Positions 1,013 through 5,337 of a stretch of 6,099 bases of DNA are shown here, in pieces (position 1 is the first letter of the stretch; every line of letters begins with the position of its first letter). The position numbers and the translations under genes were made by a program. The notes under the pieces were generated by a model. The model searched no databases and was not told where the DNA came from. It saw nothing but the letters and a program-made list of their open reading frames with translations. The DNA is from JBHIER01 sp046760705 [NCBI: bacterium] (lineage in GTDB: Bacteria > JBHIER01 > G020348925): positions 1-6,099 of the forward strand of contig JBHIER010000217.1 in assembly GCA_046760705.1 (NCBI GenBank). The letters are read 5' to 3'.

Positions 1013-1118
1013 ATACGCCCACAAGGGGCTACACTACAATTTCGCTATCCGCTTTCCTCGATTCGCTAGGAGCCAAATCCGAGGTAGCCCGTAAGTGTAT
1101 TGCTATCTAATATGATCC

Positions 1119-1123
1119 GGAGG
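1119..1123 (+). promoter_or_regulatory. Ribosome binding site that fixes the start at 1130
   Basis: GGAGG stands 6 bases before ATG 1130, which opens a signal peptide (MKKLFSFSMLILAF). The frame can be extended upstream to TTG 1100, but that codon has no comparable site and would put ten extra residues before the signal peptide. Confidence 0.8.
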
Positions 1124-1129
1124 ATGCTC

Positions 1130-3709
1130 ATGAAGAAATTGTTTTCCTTTTCAATGCTAATTCTGGCCTTTACATCGAATGTTCTCATCGGTGTCAAGGG
1201 CTCGCCTCAGCACTGTCTTCGTACTCCCTTCAAAGTTTACATGAAGAAGAGAAACACTCAGATGTTTGAGGAGAAGAGAATGCCGTTCTTTCGCTCCACA
1301 AGCGCGTGGTATGGAATTATGTCTATGAATATCGATGGGTCGAACCAAGAGCGGTTGACGGAGACCCCATTTCAGGAAAATCACGTTCATGTTTCGCCTG
1401 ACGGCACGAAGATCCTTTTCTCACGATTTACCGAAGATCTCAACAGCGATGGTGAAATTAACGAGGATGATGCGTTTTCTTCTGAAATCGGCATCAGAAA
1501 TATTGATGGTTCTGAGCCTCGATTATTAACTGACAATGATAACATCATCGATGCCGTTCCTGTCTGGTCGCCGCAGGGAGATCGTATTCTCTTTGCCTCC
1601 AGCCGGAACAGCCCTTTGGGTGGGTTTGACCTGGACCTCTTTGTCATGGATCTGAATGGAGAGAATCTGGTCAACTTGACCAATACACCGGATACAGTGG
1701 AAGCTGATCCCCACTGGGTGGGACAGACTATTGTCTTTAAAAGGGAGATAGTGGGTAACCCGACGCAGAATTCGGAGGTGTGGGTCATGAGTGACAATGG
1801 GACAAACCGGAGGCAACTGACTTTTCCTGACGTCCCAGGAGTAAGTACCATCGGATACCGATTCGGGGATTTCGATCCCAAGATTTCACCTGACGGTACA
1901 AAAGTCGCCTTCTACCGCCACCAAAACGACGTGGGTAATTTCGGAGTTGGGGATTGGGATCTGTATGTTATCGATATCGACGGAAGCAACGAAATTGATA
2001 TCAGCCAGAACGATGTCGCCGACATCATGCCCACATGGTCACCCGGTGGGACAAAGCTGGCTTTTTGGGTGATAAGTGATGATCTGAAAGATGTAGGGGA
2101 TATTTTCGTGGTGAATCCGGATGGAACTGGCCGACAGAAGGTGACCAGGGAACCGGAGTTTATGTTTGAAGAGATGCCCGATTGGTATCCGTGGGCGTTG
2201 ACAACGGAGATTGACTCACTCCCTGACATCATTTTTTCTGCAGAAGTGACCCCCGGGGAAGATGCGATTCCTCCTGCGACACCGACACTGAGGCAAATCG
2301 TCCCGGGAGATGTGACATTGACGCTCTTCTGGTATCCGAATTCTGAACCCGATCTGTTTTTCTACGCTATCTTTAGGATGGAGCAAAGTGAAGAAAATTA
2401 TCAGTTTATCGATTTCAGCTTCTGGCCGGATTATCGAGACACTGGTCTGACCAATGAGGATTACTATTGGTATAAAGTAGCGGCTATGGACACGGCTGGA
2501 AATGTCAGTTTTTTCTCTGATAGTGTGGGTACTTCACCTGGAATTGATATGGAACTGGATGGAAAAATTGTTTTCTCATCCAATCGGGATGATTCATTGA
2601 ATGAATTCTATCTCATGAATGCGGATGGCAGCAATGTCTCGAGATTGACCTACAATGCTTATCATGAGGAGCTGCCGGATGTGTTTGTGGAACAAGAGTC
2701 AAAATACTTCTCGGTATCTGAAAGTGAAGTGGATCAAAAAAGGGCACTTGAATTTCCCCATCATTCGAACATTTTGGAACCGCGTCAGAAAGTGAAAGTA
2801 ACCTTCACTCGAGAGATGGTGCCCGGCGACGTCTCCACGTGGGAGGTTTTCGACTTGAATCTGTCAAATCTTGAGGAGCGACGGCTGACGAACAACAGCG
2901 TCATCGATGGCCATTCTTCATGGTCGCCGAATGGCTCTCAGATCATGTTCGTCTCCTGGATGGACGGTGACGATGAGATCTATCTCATGGATGCTGAGAC
3001 TGCGGAGGTCATCGACACCCTGACGCAGAATGAGGATATTATTGACAACGATCCGGAGTTCTCACCGGACGGCTCTCGAATCGTGTTCAAATCGGATCGG
3101 GATACAGGAAAGGAGCAGCTTTACATTTTGGATATGTCAGGGTCAAAGTGGACTATTGAAAGGACCACCTTCAACGATAACTCAGACCACGATCCTGTCT
3201 GGTCCCCTGACGGTCGATACATCGCTTTCGAGCGCTATCTGGGTCCCGGGGATTGGTATCAGGAAGGACTGCTTCAGGGACCGTGGGCCATTTACATTCT
3301 CGATCTGCAAACAATGAAGGAGACGGCCCTAACTGATACGGCAGATACGACGGCCATCGCCTGGCTGCCGGTGTGGTCGCCGGACGGCTCAAAGATCGCT
3401 TACATCCAGTACTGCGGCTATGACAATATGGAAATATTTGTCGCAAACACAGACGGTACTCAACCTGTCAATATCTCCAACCATCCTTCAGGGGATACCT
3501 TCTTCGACTGGTTTGACTTCGAAAGCATAAAGGGCGACATCAATGATGACACACGAATCGATGTCACCGATGTGATTCTGTGCGTAAATATTATCCTTGG
3601 ATTGTATCAGCCCGATGCCGATGAGTTCTGGCGGGCGGATTACAACGGTGACGTCACAGTGGACATATTGGATGTGGTGGGCATCGTGAGAGCAATAATT
3701 GGGGATTGA
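1130..3709 (+). CDS. Secreted TolB-like double beta-propeller protein with FN3-like and dockerin-type domains
   Basis: This 859-residue protein is complete; ATG 1130 is chosen from the GGAGG site and the signal peptide at residues 1-24. Residues about 60-350 hold TolB/PD40-type blades with repeated (W)SP.G..I.F, DGS...LT and D..PVWSP motifs. Residues 103-114 (DLNSDGEINEDD) form an EF-hand-like calcium loop inside a blade. Residues about 380-470 look FN3-like (ATPTL...LFWYPNSEPDLFFYAIFR...YYWYKVAAMD.AGN). Residues about 475-795 form a second set of blades with at least four clear SPDG/SPNG repeats. Residues 801-858 are a dockerin-type EF-hand pair (GDINDDTRIDVTD, ADYNGDVTVDILD). Known: TolB-type propellers are periplasmic or extracellular binding scaffolds without a fixed catalytic role. 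Inferred: a surface-attached binding or scaffold protein; the ligand cannot be told. Odd: a roughly 40-residue insertion replaces one expected SPDG motif near residues 518-558. It is not TolB itself, because the Tol-Pal neighbours are absent and it carries a dockerin. Confidence 0.92.
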   Translation: MKKLFSFSMLILAFTSNVLIGVKGSPQHCLRTPFKVYMKKRNTQMFEEKRMPFFRSTSAWYGIMSMNIDGSNQERLTETPFQENHVHVSPDGTKILFSRFTEDLNSDGEINEDDAFSSEIGIRNIDGSEPRLLTDNDNIIDAVPVWSPQGDRILFASSRNSPLGGFDLDLFVMDLNGENLVNLTNTPDTVEADPHWVGQTIVFKREIVGNPTQNSEVWVMSDNGTNRRQLTFPDVPGVSTIGYRFGDFDPKISPDGTKVAFYRHQNDVGNFGVGDWDLYVIDIDGSNEIDISQNDVADIMPTWSPGGTKLAFWVISDDLKDVGDIFVVNPDGTGRQKVTREPEFMFEEMPDWYPWALTTEIDSLPDIIFSAEVTPGEDAIPPATPTLRQIVPGDVTLTLFWYPNSEPDLFFYAIFRMEQSEENYQFIDFSFWPDYRDTGLTNEDYYWYKVAAMDTAGNVSFFSDSVGTSPGIDMELDGKIVFSSNRDDSLNEFYLMNADGSNVSRLTYNAYHEELPDVFVEQESKYFSVSESEVDQKRALEFPHHSNILEPRQKVKVTFTREMVPGDVSTWEVFDLNLSNLEERRLTNNSVIDGHSSWSPNGSQIMFVSWMDGDDEIYLMDAETAEVIDTLTQNEDIIDNDPEFSPDGSRIVFKSDRDTGKEQLYILDMSGSKWTIERTTFNDNSDHDPVWSPDGRYIAFERYLGPGDWYQEGLLQGPWAIYILDLQTMKETALTDTADTTAIAWLPVWSPDGSKIAYIQYCGYDNMEIFVANTDGTQPVNISNHPSGDTFFDWFDFESIKGDINDDTRIDVTDVILCVNIILGLYQPDADEFWRADYNGDVTVDILDVVGIVRAIIGD

Positions 3710-3747
3710 ATTTCTACGGAGAGCATTATATTGTTTACGGCTCGCAG

Positions 3748-3821
3748 TGTCATTTCGACCCCCGAGACAAGCCCCGAAGGATAAATTATCCAACGGGGCA
3801 AGCTCAGGAGTGGAGAAATCT
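3748..3821 (+). repeat. Intergenic repeat element 1, TGTCATTTCGA to GGAGAAATCT
   Basis: It begins TGTCATTTCGA (3748-3758) and ends GGAGAAATCT (3812-3821), with a strong hairpin inside. The same two ends occur in opposite orientation at 3904-3953, and 3813-3821 also pairs perfectly with AGATTTCTC at 3838-3846. Known (from general familiarity, not checked): repeats with such ends are abundant between genes of many Bacteroidota-like and candidate-phylum genomes. Confidence 0.65.
3771..3799. repeat. Near-perfect palindrome / hairpin inside element 1
   Basis: GCCCCG (3771-3776) pairs with CGGGGC (3794-3799), and GGATAA (3779-3784) pairs with TTATCC (3786-3791). The two stems are separated by an AA/AA internal loop, and one base lies at the centre. 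No T-run follows, so it is more likely the folding core of a repeat than a rho-independent terminator. Confidence 0.65.
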
Positions 3822-3903
3822 GGCCTTCGCCTGAAATAGATTTCTCGATGAGGTGGCACCTGCCCTGAGCGAGATGCAATAGGTTTAGGTGCTTTTCAGT
3901 GAC

Positions 3904-3953
3904 AGATTTCTCACGGAGCTCGTTCCGAGTTTACCTCGGAGTTCGAAATGACA
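3904..3953 (-). repeat. Intergenic repeat element 2, inverted relative to element 1
   Basis: Read on the minus strand it begins TGTCATTTCGA (3953-3943) and ends GAGAAATCT (3912-3904), matching both ends of element 1. Its core differs: TCCGAG (3924-3929) and CTCGGA (3935-3940) form a 6-bp stem with a 5-base loop. Conserved ends with a variable hairpin core suggest a small non-coding element family rather than a simple duplication. Confidence 0.65.
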
Positions 3954-4038
3954 TGTGTGGGGTCGTTCGTCGAAGGCTTGGAATGACACAGGGGGAGCGG
4001 AGTTGAATAAGTTCCACTTCTAAGGAAAGCTCTTTTTC

Positions 4039-4112
4039 TGTCACTCCTGATTTGTCCTGAGTTTGTCCTGAGCGATGTCGAAGGCGAAGTCATAGGGCGG
4101 AGGAAGGAATCT
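4039..4112 (+). repeat. Intergenic repeat element 3, TGTCACTCC to GGAATCT
   Basis: It begins TGTCACTCCTGA (4039-4050), 10 of 12 bases identical to the start of element 4, and ends GGAATCT (4106-4112). It holds the CCTGAGCGA..GTCGAAGG core (4067-4084); CCTGAGCGA also occurs at 3864-3872. An 11-base tandem duplication lies inside. Confidence 0.55.
4051..4072 (+). repeat. Two perfect tandem copies of TTTGTCCTGAG
   Basis: TTTGTCCTGAG occurs at 4051-4061 and again immediately at 4062-4072 without a mismatch, within element 3. Slipped-strand duplication is the simplest explanation. Confidence 0.75.
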
Positions 4113-4131
4113 TTTCCCTTGAACTCCCTTC

Positions 4132-4157
4132 TGTCATTCCTGCGAATGCAGGAATCT
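4132..4157 (+). repeat. Intergenic repeat element 4, TGTCATTCC hairpin ending GGAATCT
   Basis: ATTCCTGC (4136-4143) and GCAGGAAT (4148-4155) form a perfect 8-bp stem with a GAAT loop, flanked by TGTC and CT. The general form ATTCC..GGAAT resembles dRS3-type repeats known in Neisseria and similar repeats elsewhere. Its 5' edge pairs perfectly with GGAATGACA at 3980-3988. Confidence 0.65.
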
Positions 4158-4215
4158 CATACCATTTTGAGGAGATGTCCCGGATTAAGTTCGTGACACG
4201 GATGATCTTTGTAAA

Positions 4216-4431
4216 ATGAGCAGGAACGTTGTCATTTTTGGAAAGAGTACATGCCCGTATACAAATAAGGCCCGGAGGGTCTATGGGAAGAGAGGGTTCT
4301 TTGTCGAATACTTCGATGTGACCGGGGATGCTGACGCGCTCCAGCGGATGTTGAAGTATTCCAATGGAAAAAGAGAGGTTCCGGTCATTGTCGAAGGCGA
4401 GAAGGTGACCATCGGTTTCGGGGGGACGTGA
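4216..4431 (+). CDS. Glutaredoxin-like protein, Cys form of the Uxx-star (seleno)protein family
   Basis: This 71-residue cytosolic protein has a thioredoxin fold of the glutaredoxin type: a beta strand (NVVIFGK), the redox motif C-P-Y-T at residues 13-16 just before the first helix, the cis-proline signature VPVI near residues 55-58, and the C-terminal G-F-G-G-T. Known: members of the Uxx-star family carry U-P-Y-T and end with a similar GFGGT; many are selenoproteins. Here codon 13 is TGC (Cys), so selenocysteine insertion is not needed. The single CxxT cysteine suggests monothiol chemistry, with the substrate unknown. ATG 4216 is the only good start, because an in-frame TAA lies at 4186-4188; the ribosome binding site is weak. 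It is followed 54 bases later by the carboxypeptidase start, which is no evidence of a shared function. The family name is from memory; the glutaredoxin-like fold is the firmer part. Confidence 0.82.
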   Translation: MSRNVVIFGKSTCPYTNKARRVYGKRGFFVEYFDVTGDADALQRMLKYSNGKREVPVIVEGEKVTIGFGGT

Positions 4432-4470
4432 AAAGTGTAATGTGTCGGCAGGTGTCGATTGCGTGAATTT

Positions 4471-4479
4471 AGAGAGGAG
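4471..4479 (+). promoter_or_regulatory. Ribosome binding site that fixes the carboxypeptidase start at 4486
   Basis: AGAGAGGAG ends 6 bases before ATG 4486, which begins a signal peptide (MRRFVLLLVLTLCILSGAA). The upstream TTG at 4459 is in frame but lacks such a site and would lengthen the N-terminus ahead of the signal peptide. Confidence 0.8.
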
Positions 4480-4485
4480 TCACTT

Positions 4486-5337
4486 ATGAGACGGTTTGTT
4501 CTTCTCTTAGTTTTAACTTTGTGCATCCTGTCAGGAGCAGCGTATTCGGACAGTGGGGACGGAAAGCTGATCCGCGTAAATCTTTCCGGCAAAGATGAGG
4601 CCGCCGTCCTTGAGTTGCTTCGGCTTCATCCCGATATCGCCTCCTACAATCCAAAGGGTCGTTACGTTGACATCGTGGCCAGCGGTAGTGAGGTTGAAGC
4701 GATACAAAAACTCGGTTTTCAGACGACCGTCCGGATCGCAGACCTCGATGCCCGGGCCAAGGCCATGCGCCAGCAGGACTATTTTGATCATTTTCACACC
4801 TACGCCGAGATGCTGGCGGAGATGCAGGCCGTTGTGGCCGCTCATCCTAATGTTGCCAAATTGTACGATATCGGCGATAGCTGGGAGAAGACTCAAGGGT
4901 TGGCCGATCGGGACATCTGGGCCATCAAGATATCGGATAACGTGAGCCAGCAGGAAGCCGACGAGCCGGAAGTGCTCTACATGGCCTGCCATCACGCCCG
5001 GGAGATCATCACTCCGGATTCGGAGACCCAAGCTATCCGAGATCTGGCTGAGGCGCACAGCTTTGTCATCGCCCTCTCCTATCACTCTTACGGTAACCTG
5101 CTCCTCTTTCCGTGGGGGTATATTGAGGCCAACACACCGGATCACCCCACTTTCCTGGGCATCACTCAGGGTATGGCCGCCTACAACGGCTATCAGCCCG
5201 GGAATCCTGCTTCGGGGACGATCTACATCACCAACGGTGATACCGACGACTGGATGTACGGGGAGCAGACGACCAAAAACAAGGTGTTCGGGATCACCCC
5301 TGAGGTGGGGGGGGTCAGCAGACGGATTTCATCCTGA
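4486..5337 (+). CDS. Secreted M14 zinc carboxypeptidase, internally deleted and 3'-frameshifted (likely pseudogene)
   Basis: The 283-residue frame opens with a signal peptide (about residues 1-21), an N-terminal prosegment-like stretch (22-95), and then the M14 domain. Zinc ligands are visible: H170 and E173 in HHARE, and H200 in SYHSYG. Y247 (IYITNGDTDDWMYG) and E273 (GITPEVGG) match the substrate-binding Tyr and catalytic Glu of carboxypeptidases A/T. Odd: only 26 residues separate E173 from H200, against about 123 in bovine carboxypeptidase A. EIITP runs straight into SETQAIRDL, so the segment that normally holds the NPDG, Arg127-like and DLNR(N) substrate-binding elements is missing. At 5307-5314 a run of eight G shifts the frame, and translation ends in VSRRISS at the TGA at 5335-5337; reading seven G restores the expected domain. 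Start chosen from AGAGAGGAG. Family assignment is sure; activity is doubtful. Confidence 0.85.
   Translation: MRRFVLLLVLTLCILSGAAYSDSGDGKLIRVNLSGKDEAAVLELLRLHPDIASYNPKGRYVDIVASGSEVEAIQKLGFQTTVRIADLDARAKAMRQQDYFDHFHTYAEMLAEMQAVVAAHPNVAKLYDIGDSWEKTQGLADRDIWAIKISDNVSQQEADEPEVLYMACHHAREIITPDSETQAIRDLAEAHSFVIALSYHSYGNLLLFPWGYIEANTPDHPTFLGITQGMAAYNGYQPGNPASGTIYITNGDTDDWMYGEQTTKNKVFGITPEVGGVSRRISS

Follow-up and report, generated by a model that had tools for sequence, protein, structure and literature searches.

A cluster of four short DNA segments that share their ends and differ in their middles raises the question of what these segments are and how they came to lie side by side between two bacterial genes. 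They were found in the window, by which we mean the whole 6099-bp stretch of DNA that was analyzed, where a 506-bp gap from a PD40/dockerin gene to a glutaredoxin gene houses all four. The answer reached here, to which we assign a probability of about 0.75, is that REP-type elements of the CGTC/TGTC-tagged superfamily have piled up in the segment 3748-4157. It is very probable that the window elements belong to this superfamily; how the elements move and how their cores change are matters for more guarded statements, as given below.

Genes and Elements in the Window

Three of the genes surrounding or following the gap are listed below.

1100-3709 (+): upstream gene, encoding PD40 (WD40-like) beta-propeller repeats and a C-terminal dockerin
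4216-4431 (+): downstream gene, encoding a glutaredoxin of 71 aa
4459-5337: zinc carboxypeptidase gene

A dockerin/FG-GAP gene is also present in addition to the PD40/dockerin gene. Dockerin type I domains at 699-848 and 3530-3679 end two adjacent, otherwise unlike proteins and may point to a cohesin-dockerin or surface-attachment system of the window's lineage. The M14 carboxypeptidase ORF (4459-5337) encodes 292 aa, and the middle of its domain seems to be absent when read by eye: HHAREIITPD is followed nearly at once by what seems to be a later stretch of the domain. Either an internal deletion of the gene or a join made in assembly may account for this.

The earlier note on this DNA had listed four elements in the gap, and all of them were located again with the same coordinates, strands and ends. 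Together with two damaged or partial copies, they are as follows.

3748-3821 (+): element 1; TGTC head, foot ATTTC/GAAAT with five of five pairs, GA/GA mismatch, CT tail
3838-3904 (-): damaged element, probable partner of element 1; the 3' arm AGATTTCTC is intact and has GA, and the far end reads TGTCACT
3904-3953 (-): element 2; TGTC head, foot ATTTC/GAAAT with five of five pairs, GA/GA mismatch, CT tail, class II
3980-3988 (-): lone 5' head TGTCATTCC, scoring only 4.3 bits in the covariance model
4039-4112 (+): element 3; TGTC head, CT tail, foot with four of five pairs, lacking GA/GA
4132-4157 (+): element 4; fully paired 8-bp stem, 4-nt loop, class I, on the CGTC-1/dRS3 plan

The pile-up consists of one intact short copy (4132-4157), two long-core copies (3748-3821 and, on the minus strand, 3904-3953), a decayed copy (4039-4112), the damaged arm at 3838-3904 (minus) and the lone head at 3980-3988 (minus), which is probably half an element. 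Element 1 is a class II element, as defined below, with a long core of 54 nt that carries a nested hairpin. The core of element 2 measures 30 nt, and its first pairs are A-T and C-G; two elements in the genome G048 equal it in length (50 nt) and have core words that look alike by eye. The single mismatch in the foot of element 3 is the second stem pair, and the core of this element carries the module TGTCCTGAGCGATGTCGAAGG at 4064-4084. TGTC begins each of the window's five two-ended elements, and the tails of elements 1-4 read CT-G, CT-G, CT-T and CT-C, respectively.

An 11-bp inverted match between elements 1 and 2 (3748-3758 / 3943-3953) was present, as had been noted, within a larger inverted pair. 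The 9-bp match GAGAAATCT / AGATTTCTC and its extra copy at 3838-3846 were likewise recovered in a search for inverted and direct repeats. This "extra copy" is in fact the 3' arm of the damaged element at 3838-3904 (minus), which the earlier note had missed. Two of the five foot pairs remain in that element, and its base 3904 is common to element 2. Element 1 and the arm at 3838-3904 face head-to-head, with the heads outside and a 16-bp spacer, which is the layout usual in the family; the window probably contains one such pair, of which one partner is damaged.

The number of elements in the gap was compared with shuffled sequences using a simple rule, consisting of the head [CT]GTCA[TC]T, two complementary foot bases and the tail. 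Four two-ended elements were observed in 3710-4215, whereas 2000 dinucleotide shuffles gave none in 1986 cases and a single one in 14. Two occurrences of the strict form TGTCATTYCGA...GAGRAATCT were present in the gap, compared with none in the 2000 shuffles. The same finder gave none elsewhere in the 6099-bp window, and an Rfam search of the window yielded no match at the gathering thresholds.

The interiors of all four elements had been thought to fold, and this held in part. Folding was strong compared with shuffles for element 1 (3748-3821, z -3.8) and element 4 (4132-4157, z -5.8) and weak for element 2 (3904-3953, z -1.6, with 17 of 200 shuffles equally good), while element 3 (4039-4112) did not fold beyond chance (z +1.1, 174 of 200 shuffles equally good). 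No fold above chance was detected for the damaged element at 3838-3904 (z -0.9), and three short class II elements, each folded alone, did no better than their shuffles. The case for the class II stem is made by covariation and not by the folding of single elements.

Relatives in Other Genomes

Relatives were obtained by a scan with the window glutaredoxin, which gave 44 loci at a best identity of 60% and no close relative. Pattern and Y1_Tnp counts were made on the genomes behind 43 of these 44 loci (L037 was left out). The pattern TGTCATTYC-N6-36-RAATCT gave 360 matches in 34 of the 43 genomes, compared with 10 for the reversed pattern. The family is accordingly neither confined to this locus nor present at a chance frequency, the two outcomes that had been named as evidence against it. 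Nine genomes with at least 10 matches each account for 296 of the 360 matches: G011 (125), G004 (32), G009 (32), G012 (29), G037 (21), G016 (19), G010 (15), G014 (13) and G041 (10). The other 25 of the 34 match-bearing genomes hold one to six matches, some of which resemble chance. A stricter form containing GA was found in 26 of 41 genomes around and including G011, reaching 139 matches per genome (G068), while the control pattern gave 0. These element counts rest on strict patterns.

Single window elements could also be traced. Two letter-for-letter copies of the 26-nt element 4 occur in G037, a genome reached through a Spirochaetota MAG locus (L038). Both copies (L318, L320) are followed by CATA, as is the window copy (4158-4161), and CA follows 9 of the 15 distinct tails of elements in G037. 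The conserved unit in that genome may therefore be longer than 26 nt. With at most one letter different, the 21-nt core module of element 3 was found only in the window and in three copies in G004 among all DNA fetched for the analysis to that stage; each G004 copy lies within a family element, in the orientation opposite to the element head. In G041 (L107, L112, L117, L122, L127), a genome reached through an Armatimonadetes MAG locus, TGTCATTCCCACGAAAGTGGGAATCCAGAATCT makes up 7 of 10 matches and an eighth is one letter off, suggesting that one class I copy multiplied in a recent burst.

Anatomy and Covariation of the Family

All relatives are built on one plan, in which TGTC/CGTC forms an unpaired head and CT or CC an unpaired tail, with a 5-bp foot stem and an apical part between them. 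The letters of the apical stem vary while its base pairing is kept. Covariation was evaluated for 98 distinct elements and class for 190, both sets being drawn from all loci together with window elements 2 and 4. Head, foot ends and GA/GA served to select the 98, and core pairing was no criterion. Watson-Crick pairing was found at the first core pair in 90 of the 98 elements, compared with a mean of 32 and a maximum of 48 in 2000 shuffles; at the second core pair the count was 85 (shuffles: mean 46, maximum 60), and at the variable foot pair it was 95 (mean 70, maximum 80). For the 35 distinct elements of 27 nt, 98.4% of the cells pair, with a covariation score of 0.257 against 0.095 when shuffled and at most 0.054 when slid. 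Two other measures were weak in this set, namely the number of pair types (5, versus 5.1 when shuffled) and the number of pairs with two-sided changes (3, versus 1.8, a value reached by 12 of 500 shuffles). The shuffles, for the 98 elements as for the 35, ignore kinship among the elements.

Beside the foot, exactly GA/GA was found in 88 of the 190 distinct elements, full pairing in 66 and neither in 36. The loci of G046 and G048 had been picked by a GA-containing pattern, and this statistic was repeated without those two genomes; among 86 elements from loci not chosen for GA, 44 had GA/GA, 31 were fully paired and 11 were neither. Two classes are thus present. Elements of class I, such as element 4, are fully paired; those of class II, such as elements 1 and 2, have a strongly covarying core and, below it, a tandem GA/GA mismatch. 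The heads of the 190 were TGTC in 163 cases and CGTC in 27, the only two that the search pattern admitted. As for the tails, fully paired relatives often have CC-AG and GA/GA elements often CT-T.

A covariance model, whose construction had been suggested earlier, was built from the 27-nt class II relatives and found the window element at 4132-4157 with 18.6 bits (E 0.016). Of the window elements it recognized this one only; the long-core elements scored 4-6 bits, and the next-best match in the window lay elsewhere (10.9 bits, E 0.39). Neighbors within 100 bp, with each place counted once (n = 97), comprised 70 head-to-head, 13 tail-to-tail and 14 same-strand arrangements. By a crude ORF call, ORFs cover 81% of the bases and contain 33 of the 209 elements, the other 176 lying outside them.

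Occupied Sites, Empty Sites and a Changed Core

The evidence on mobility comes entirely from other bacteria, none of them known as a close relative of the window's. G046 and G048 align in nine blocks of about 62.7 kb in total at 91-96% identity, while G049 and G050 are more distant. A scan for empty sites, which skipped clusters less than 180 bp from a locus end, flagged nine distinct site-genome comparisons, six of which stand after inspection. For example, the G046 element at L243:3081-3106 is absent from G049 and G050, which have 7 and 8 nt instead, and that at L242:745-816 is absent from G049, which has 13 nt instead. Three candidates were rejected: G048 carries a pair at L242:7599, the element at L252:1804 is present in G046, and the comparison of G050 L264:2805-2905 with G049 is a deletion that leaves part of the element. 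For two elements of G011, the relatives that were aligned lack both and are mostly too distant, at about 72-75% identity beside the sites, to give exact junctions.

The site L242:14650-14702 provides one clean case of a core that changed at a fixed place. Here, G046 has a long core of 53 nt and G050 one of 54 nt, while G048 carries the 26-nt short form TGTCATTCCCGCGCAGGCGGGAATCC; the flanks of G046 and G048 are 93% and 96% identical, and G049 has other sequence there. The difference between the long and short forms could also be due to two deletions. A weaker case is L243:3081, where the core is short in G046 but long in G048 and the right flank alone is shared. At L242:8645, G046 and G048 carry different pairs, and the same site is unoccupied in G049. 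These comparisons among G046, G048, G049 and G050 show differences between genomes, not the direction of gain or loss. Insertion near or into existing copies, which the earlier note had suggested, is a possible origin of the cluster, although the clean comparison means that different cores need not represent separate insertions. That cores change at fixed sites is in our judgment about an even bet.

A second intergenic repeat, GTAGTGCAGGACTTTAGTCCTGC ... CAGACCTGAAGGTCTGCACTAC, was seen by eye in G046 and G049, beside the TGTC elements or replacing them at some sites (L241 around 16799-17049, L242 745-931, L243 around 3081, and L263).

The earlier view of a mobilized non-autonomous family gains support for the family from presence and absence in related genomes of other bacteria, and the window contig gave no direct support to it. 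The accompanying view, of a dispersed family with constant ends and differing hairpin cores and not a plain tandem duplication, is supported by the observations.

Candidate Mobilizers and Alternative Explanations

A REP-associated tyrosine transposase (RAYT) had been proposed as the mobilizer. If such an enzyme, encoded in the same genomes, moved these elements as is thought for GTAG REPs, then REPs should lie beside the RAYT gene and be cut at the CT tail. The hairpin, the unpaired head, the CT or CC tail and the head-to-head pairs all fit RAYT substrates. Matches to the RAYT-like profile NF047646 were detected in 30 of 41 genomes at E 0.001, with 18 of the 41 above the curated cut-off, and Y1_Tnp matches in 35 of 43; at one RAYT locus (L308 in G048), elements begin about 0.6 kb beyond the profile match. 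The proposal nevertheless fared poorly in these other genomes, with neither a flanking association nor a significant correlation of counts. None of 21 Y1_Tnp matches in G004, G009, G010, G011 and G012 had a complete element within 1.5 kb (14 of the 21 had 1.5 kb of sequence on both sides), and among six more regions, one in G037 (L311) has a weak match of 105 nt about 0.1 kb off and another (L316) an element about 2 kb off. Of 30 RAYT loci, each 1.9-3.4 kb long, three (L283, L291 and L308) contained complete elements, the nearest at about 0.6 kb. Element counts correlated significantly neither with RAYT counts (Spearman rho 0.26, p 0.11, n = 41) nor with Y1_Tnp counts (rho 0.12, p 0.43, n = 43). 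G016, G047 and G049 contain 12-17 strict elements and no RAYT match, and 8 of the 41 genomes have RAYT matches and no strict elements; absence in single genomes means little, since many are incomplete MAGs whose completeness is not given. The sections consulted of the 2013 survey of CGTC repeats likewise report no transposase beside them (PMC3733652). Mobilization by a RAYT of the same genome is hence regarded as unlikely.

Other enzymes were also looked for. No transposase-like ORF was recognized between elements lying within 250 bp on both sides, among 21 of 862 ORFs (some doubly counted), 13 of them distinct and judged by eye on their first 70 residues. One TnpAREP picks its cleavage dinucleotide by a guide rule, according to the part of PMC8266576 consulted. 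Extrapolated to a TGTC guide, this rule would predict GA or GC, a prediction that did not hold: GA and GC made up 7 of the 263 dinucleotides upstream of the elements and 5 of the 236 downstream. Among the listed open PubMed Central papers on CGTC repeats and REPIN/RAYT, judged by titles and the starts of abstracts, none apparently names a mobilizer. The portions consulted of PMC6006769, PMC4666352 and PMC10969869 contain nothing on the CGTC/TGTC family beyond PMC3733652, and the REP search models described in the consulted part of PMC6006769 used GTAG/GTGG heads.

Movement might instead involve double-stranded DNA, with a DDE transposase carrying a whole head-to-head pair as a MITE-like unit bounded by TGTCATT...AATGACA terminal inverted repeats. 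Neighbors are mostly such pairs, whose outer ends form inverted repeats, and a weak excess of flanking direct repeats of at least 3 bp was observed across genomes (8 of 69 pairs versus 2.2 expected, with 2 of 1000 shuffles as high). When near-duplicates were removed (69 to 53 pairs) and shuffling was done within genomes, with values uncorrected for the nine offsets tried, repeats of at least 3 bp flanked 6 of 53 pairs versus 2.4 expected (16 of 1000 shuffles) and repeats of at least 4 bp flanked 3 of 53 versus 0.6 (10 of 1000). The remaining 47 of the 53 pairs, however, have no flanking repeat of at least 3 bp, the repeats that exist vary from 3 to 4 in length, and one is a run of A. Moreover, many elements are single, and the hairpin within each half covaries, for which a MITE end has no need, so that this origin appears improbable. 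Nor is it probable that the elements are old sequence retained for a host role, such as stabilization of mRNA 3' ends, transcription termination, or a site for gyrase or IHF, with their spreading being incidental. Their preference for positions outside ORFs (176 of 209) and their covarying stem would suit such a role, and host roles of REPs are discussed in the consulted part of PMC3733652. Against it, the flanking genes are oriented much as in the background (++ 31, -- 21, +- 17 and -+ 14 of 83 gaps, versus 116, 105, 78 and 69 of 368), no terminator-like site was found in 3600-4300 of the window, and mismatches of the core pairs do not point to selection acting on a single RNA strand (G-T types 6, A-C types 5). 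Related genomes also differ by presence and absence at the same site.

Covariation itself could arise as a mutational by-product. Template switching within an imperfect palindrome can copy one arm into the other, which would keep the arms complementary without selection or recognition. The occurrence of GC..GC and CC..GG at one orthologous site is the kind of coordinated two-sided change that this process would leave. Template switching should, however, repair the GA/GA mismatch as well, yet among the 124 distinct elements whose pairing beside the foot is incomplete, 88 have exactly GA/GA. We consider a purely mutational origin of the covariation to have a low probability.

The likeliest single mechanism, to be taken as tentative, is mobilization in trans by an HUH-type nuclease acting on folded single strands. 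The constant ends, the foot and the class II GA/GA mismatch would be what a protein recognizes on folded single-stranded DNA, and this protein would most likely act in trans and be an HUH-type nuclease related to the REP transposases. While the ends, foot and GA/GA are recognized, the core would be free to change. Gene conversion or template switching between copies could then alter cores at fixed sites, giving rise to elements with common ends and different hairpin cores. In a much more speculative form, which we think rather doubtful, TGTC-tagged REPs would represent a second, RAYT-independent world of mobile hairpins, in which an enzyme reads the head, the foot and the tandem GA/GA and the core serves as a cassette swapped at fixed sites and shared between phyla.

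Comparison with Known Systems

Familiar REPs with a GTAG head and REPINs with their RAYTs (Pseudomonas, E. coli, Stenotrophomonas) resemble the present family in combining a head motif with a hairpin, in their head-to-head arrangement and intergenic location, and in looking mobile. They differ in that the head here is TGTC/CGTC and not GTAG (or GTGG), and in that the loci examined, which are from genomes other than the window's, have no consistent RAYT neighbor. E. coli REPs have conserved stem mismatches that are required by their enzyme, according to the part of PMC8266576 consulted. The GA/GA mismatch of class II is a concrete mark that can be tested as a protein recognition site.

A closer counterpart is the CGTC-tagged REP superfamily with its families CGTC-1 to CGTC-4, named by Di Nocera et al. 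in 2013 (PMC3733652), the consulted sections of which leave its mobilizer as a question. The superfamily is described there as having a CGTC, often TGTC, head, an 8-9 bp stem that opens with A-T pairs, a loop of 4-5 nt and a tail that is mostly CCA; it is mostly arranged in head-to-head pairs, occurs in five phyla, and takes in Neisseria dRS3 (= CGTC-1) and two Rickettsia repeats. The present elements agree with this description in the unpaired CGTC/TGTC head, the unpaired tail and the short palindromic units, as well as in being mostly intergenic, spread over several phyla and, as far as the consulted text goes, not adjoined by a transposase. A stem beginning with two A-T pairs is seen as well, except for the mismatch at the second pair of element 3, and head-to-head pairs prevail among the relatives, the window itself having one probable pair. 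Element 4 has the stem and loop of the superfamily and is a close fit except for its tail. Tails of the window elements are CT-N and not CCA, although CCA is said of "most" members in PMC3733652 and is thus not strictly defining. Elements 1-3 (50-74 nt) depart further: elements 1 and 2 have long nested cores beyond the 4-5 nt loops, and element 3 differs by its length and decay. The tandem GA/GA mismatch of class II may also set these elements apart from the superfamily as described in the text of PMC3733652.

What appears to be new relative to the known superfamily is the long cores and the GA/GA mismatch of elements 1 and 2, the plan of element 4 being already known. The consensus of Neisseria dRS3 reads ATTCCC-N8-GGGAAT. 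Compared by this consensus, element 4 follows the same plan, with a TGTC head, ATTCC...GGAAT, an 8-bp stem and a 4-nt loop, and differs in the letters of its stem (ATTCCTGC/GCAGGAAT). The window leads to a little-studied, widely spread superfamily in which constant ends enclose a changing middle hairpin, and the presence/absence sites of G046, G048, G049 and G050, together with one clean core change, make the question of its mobilizer a testable one.
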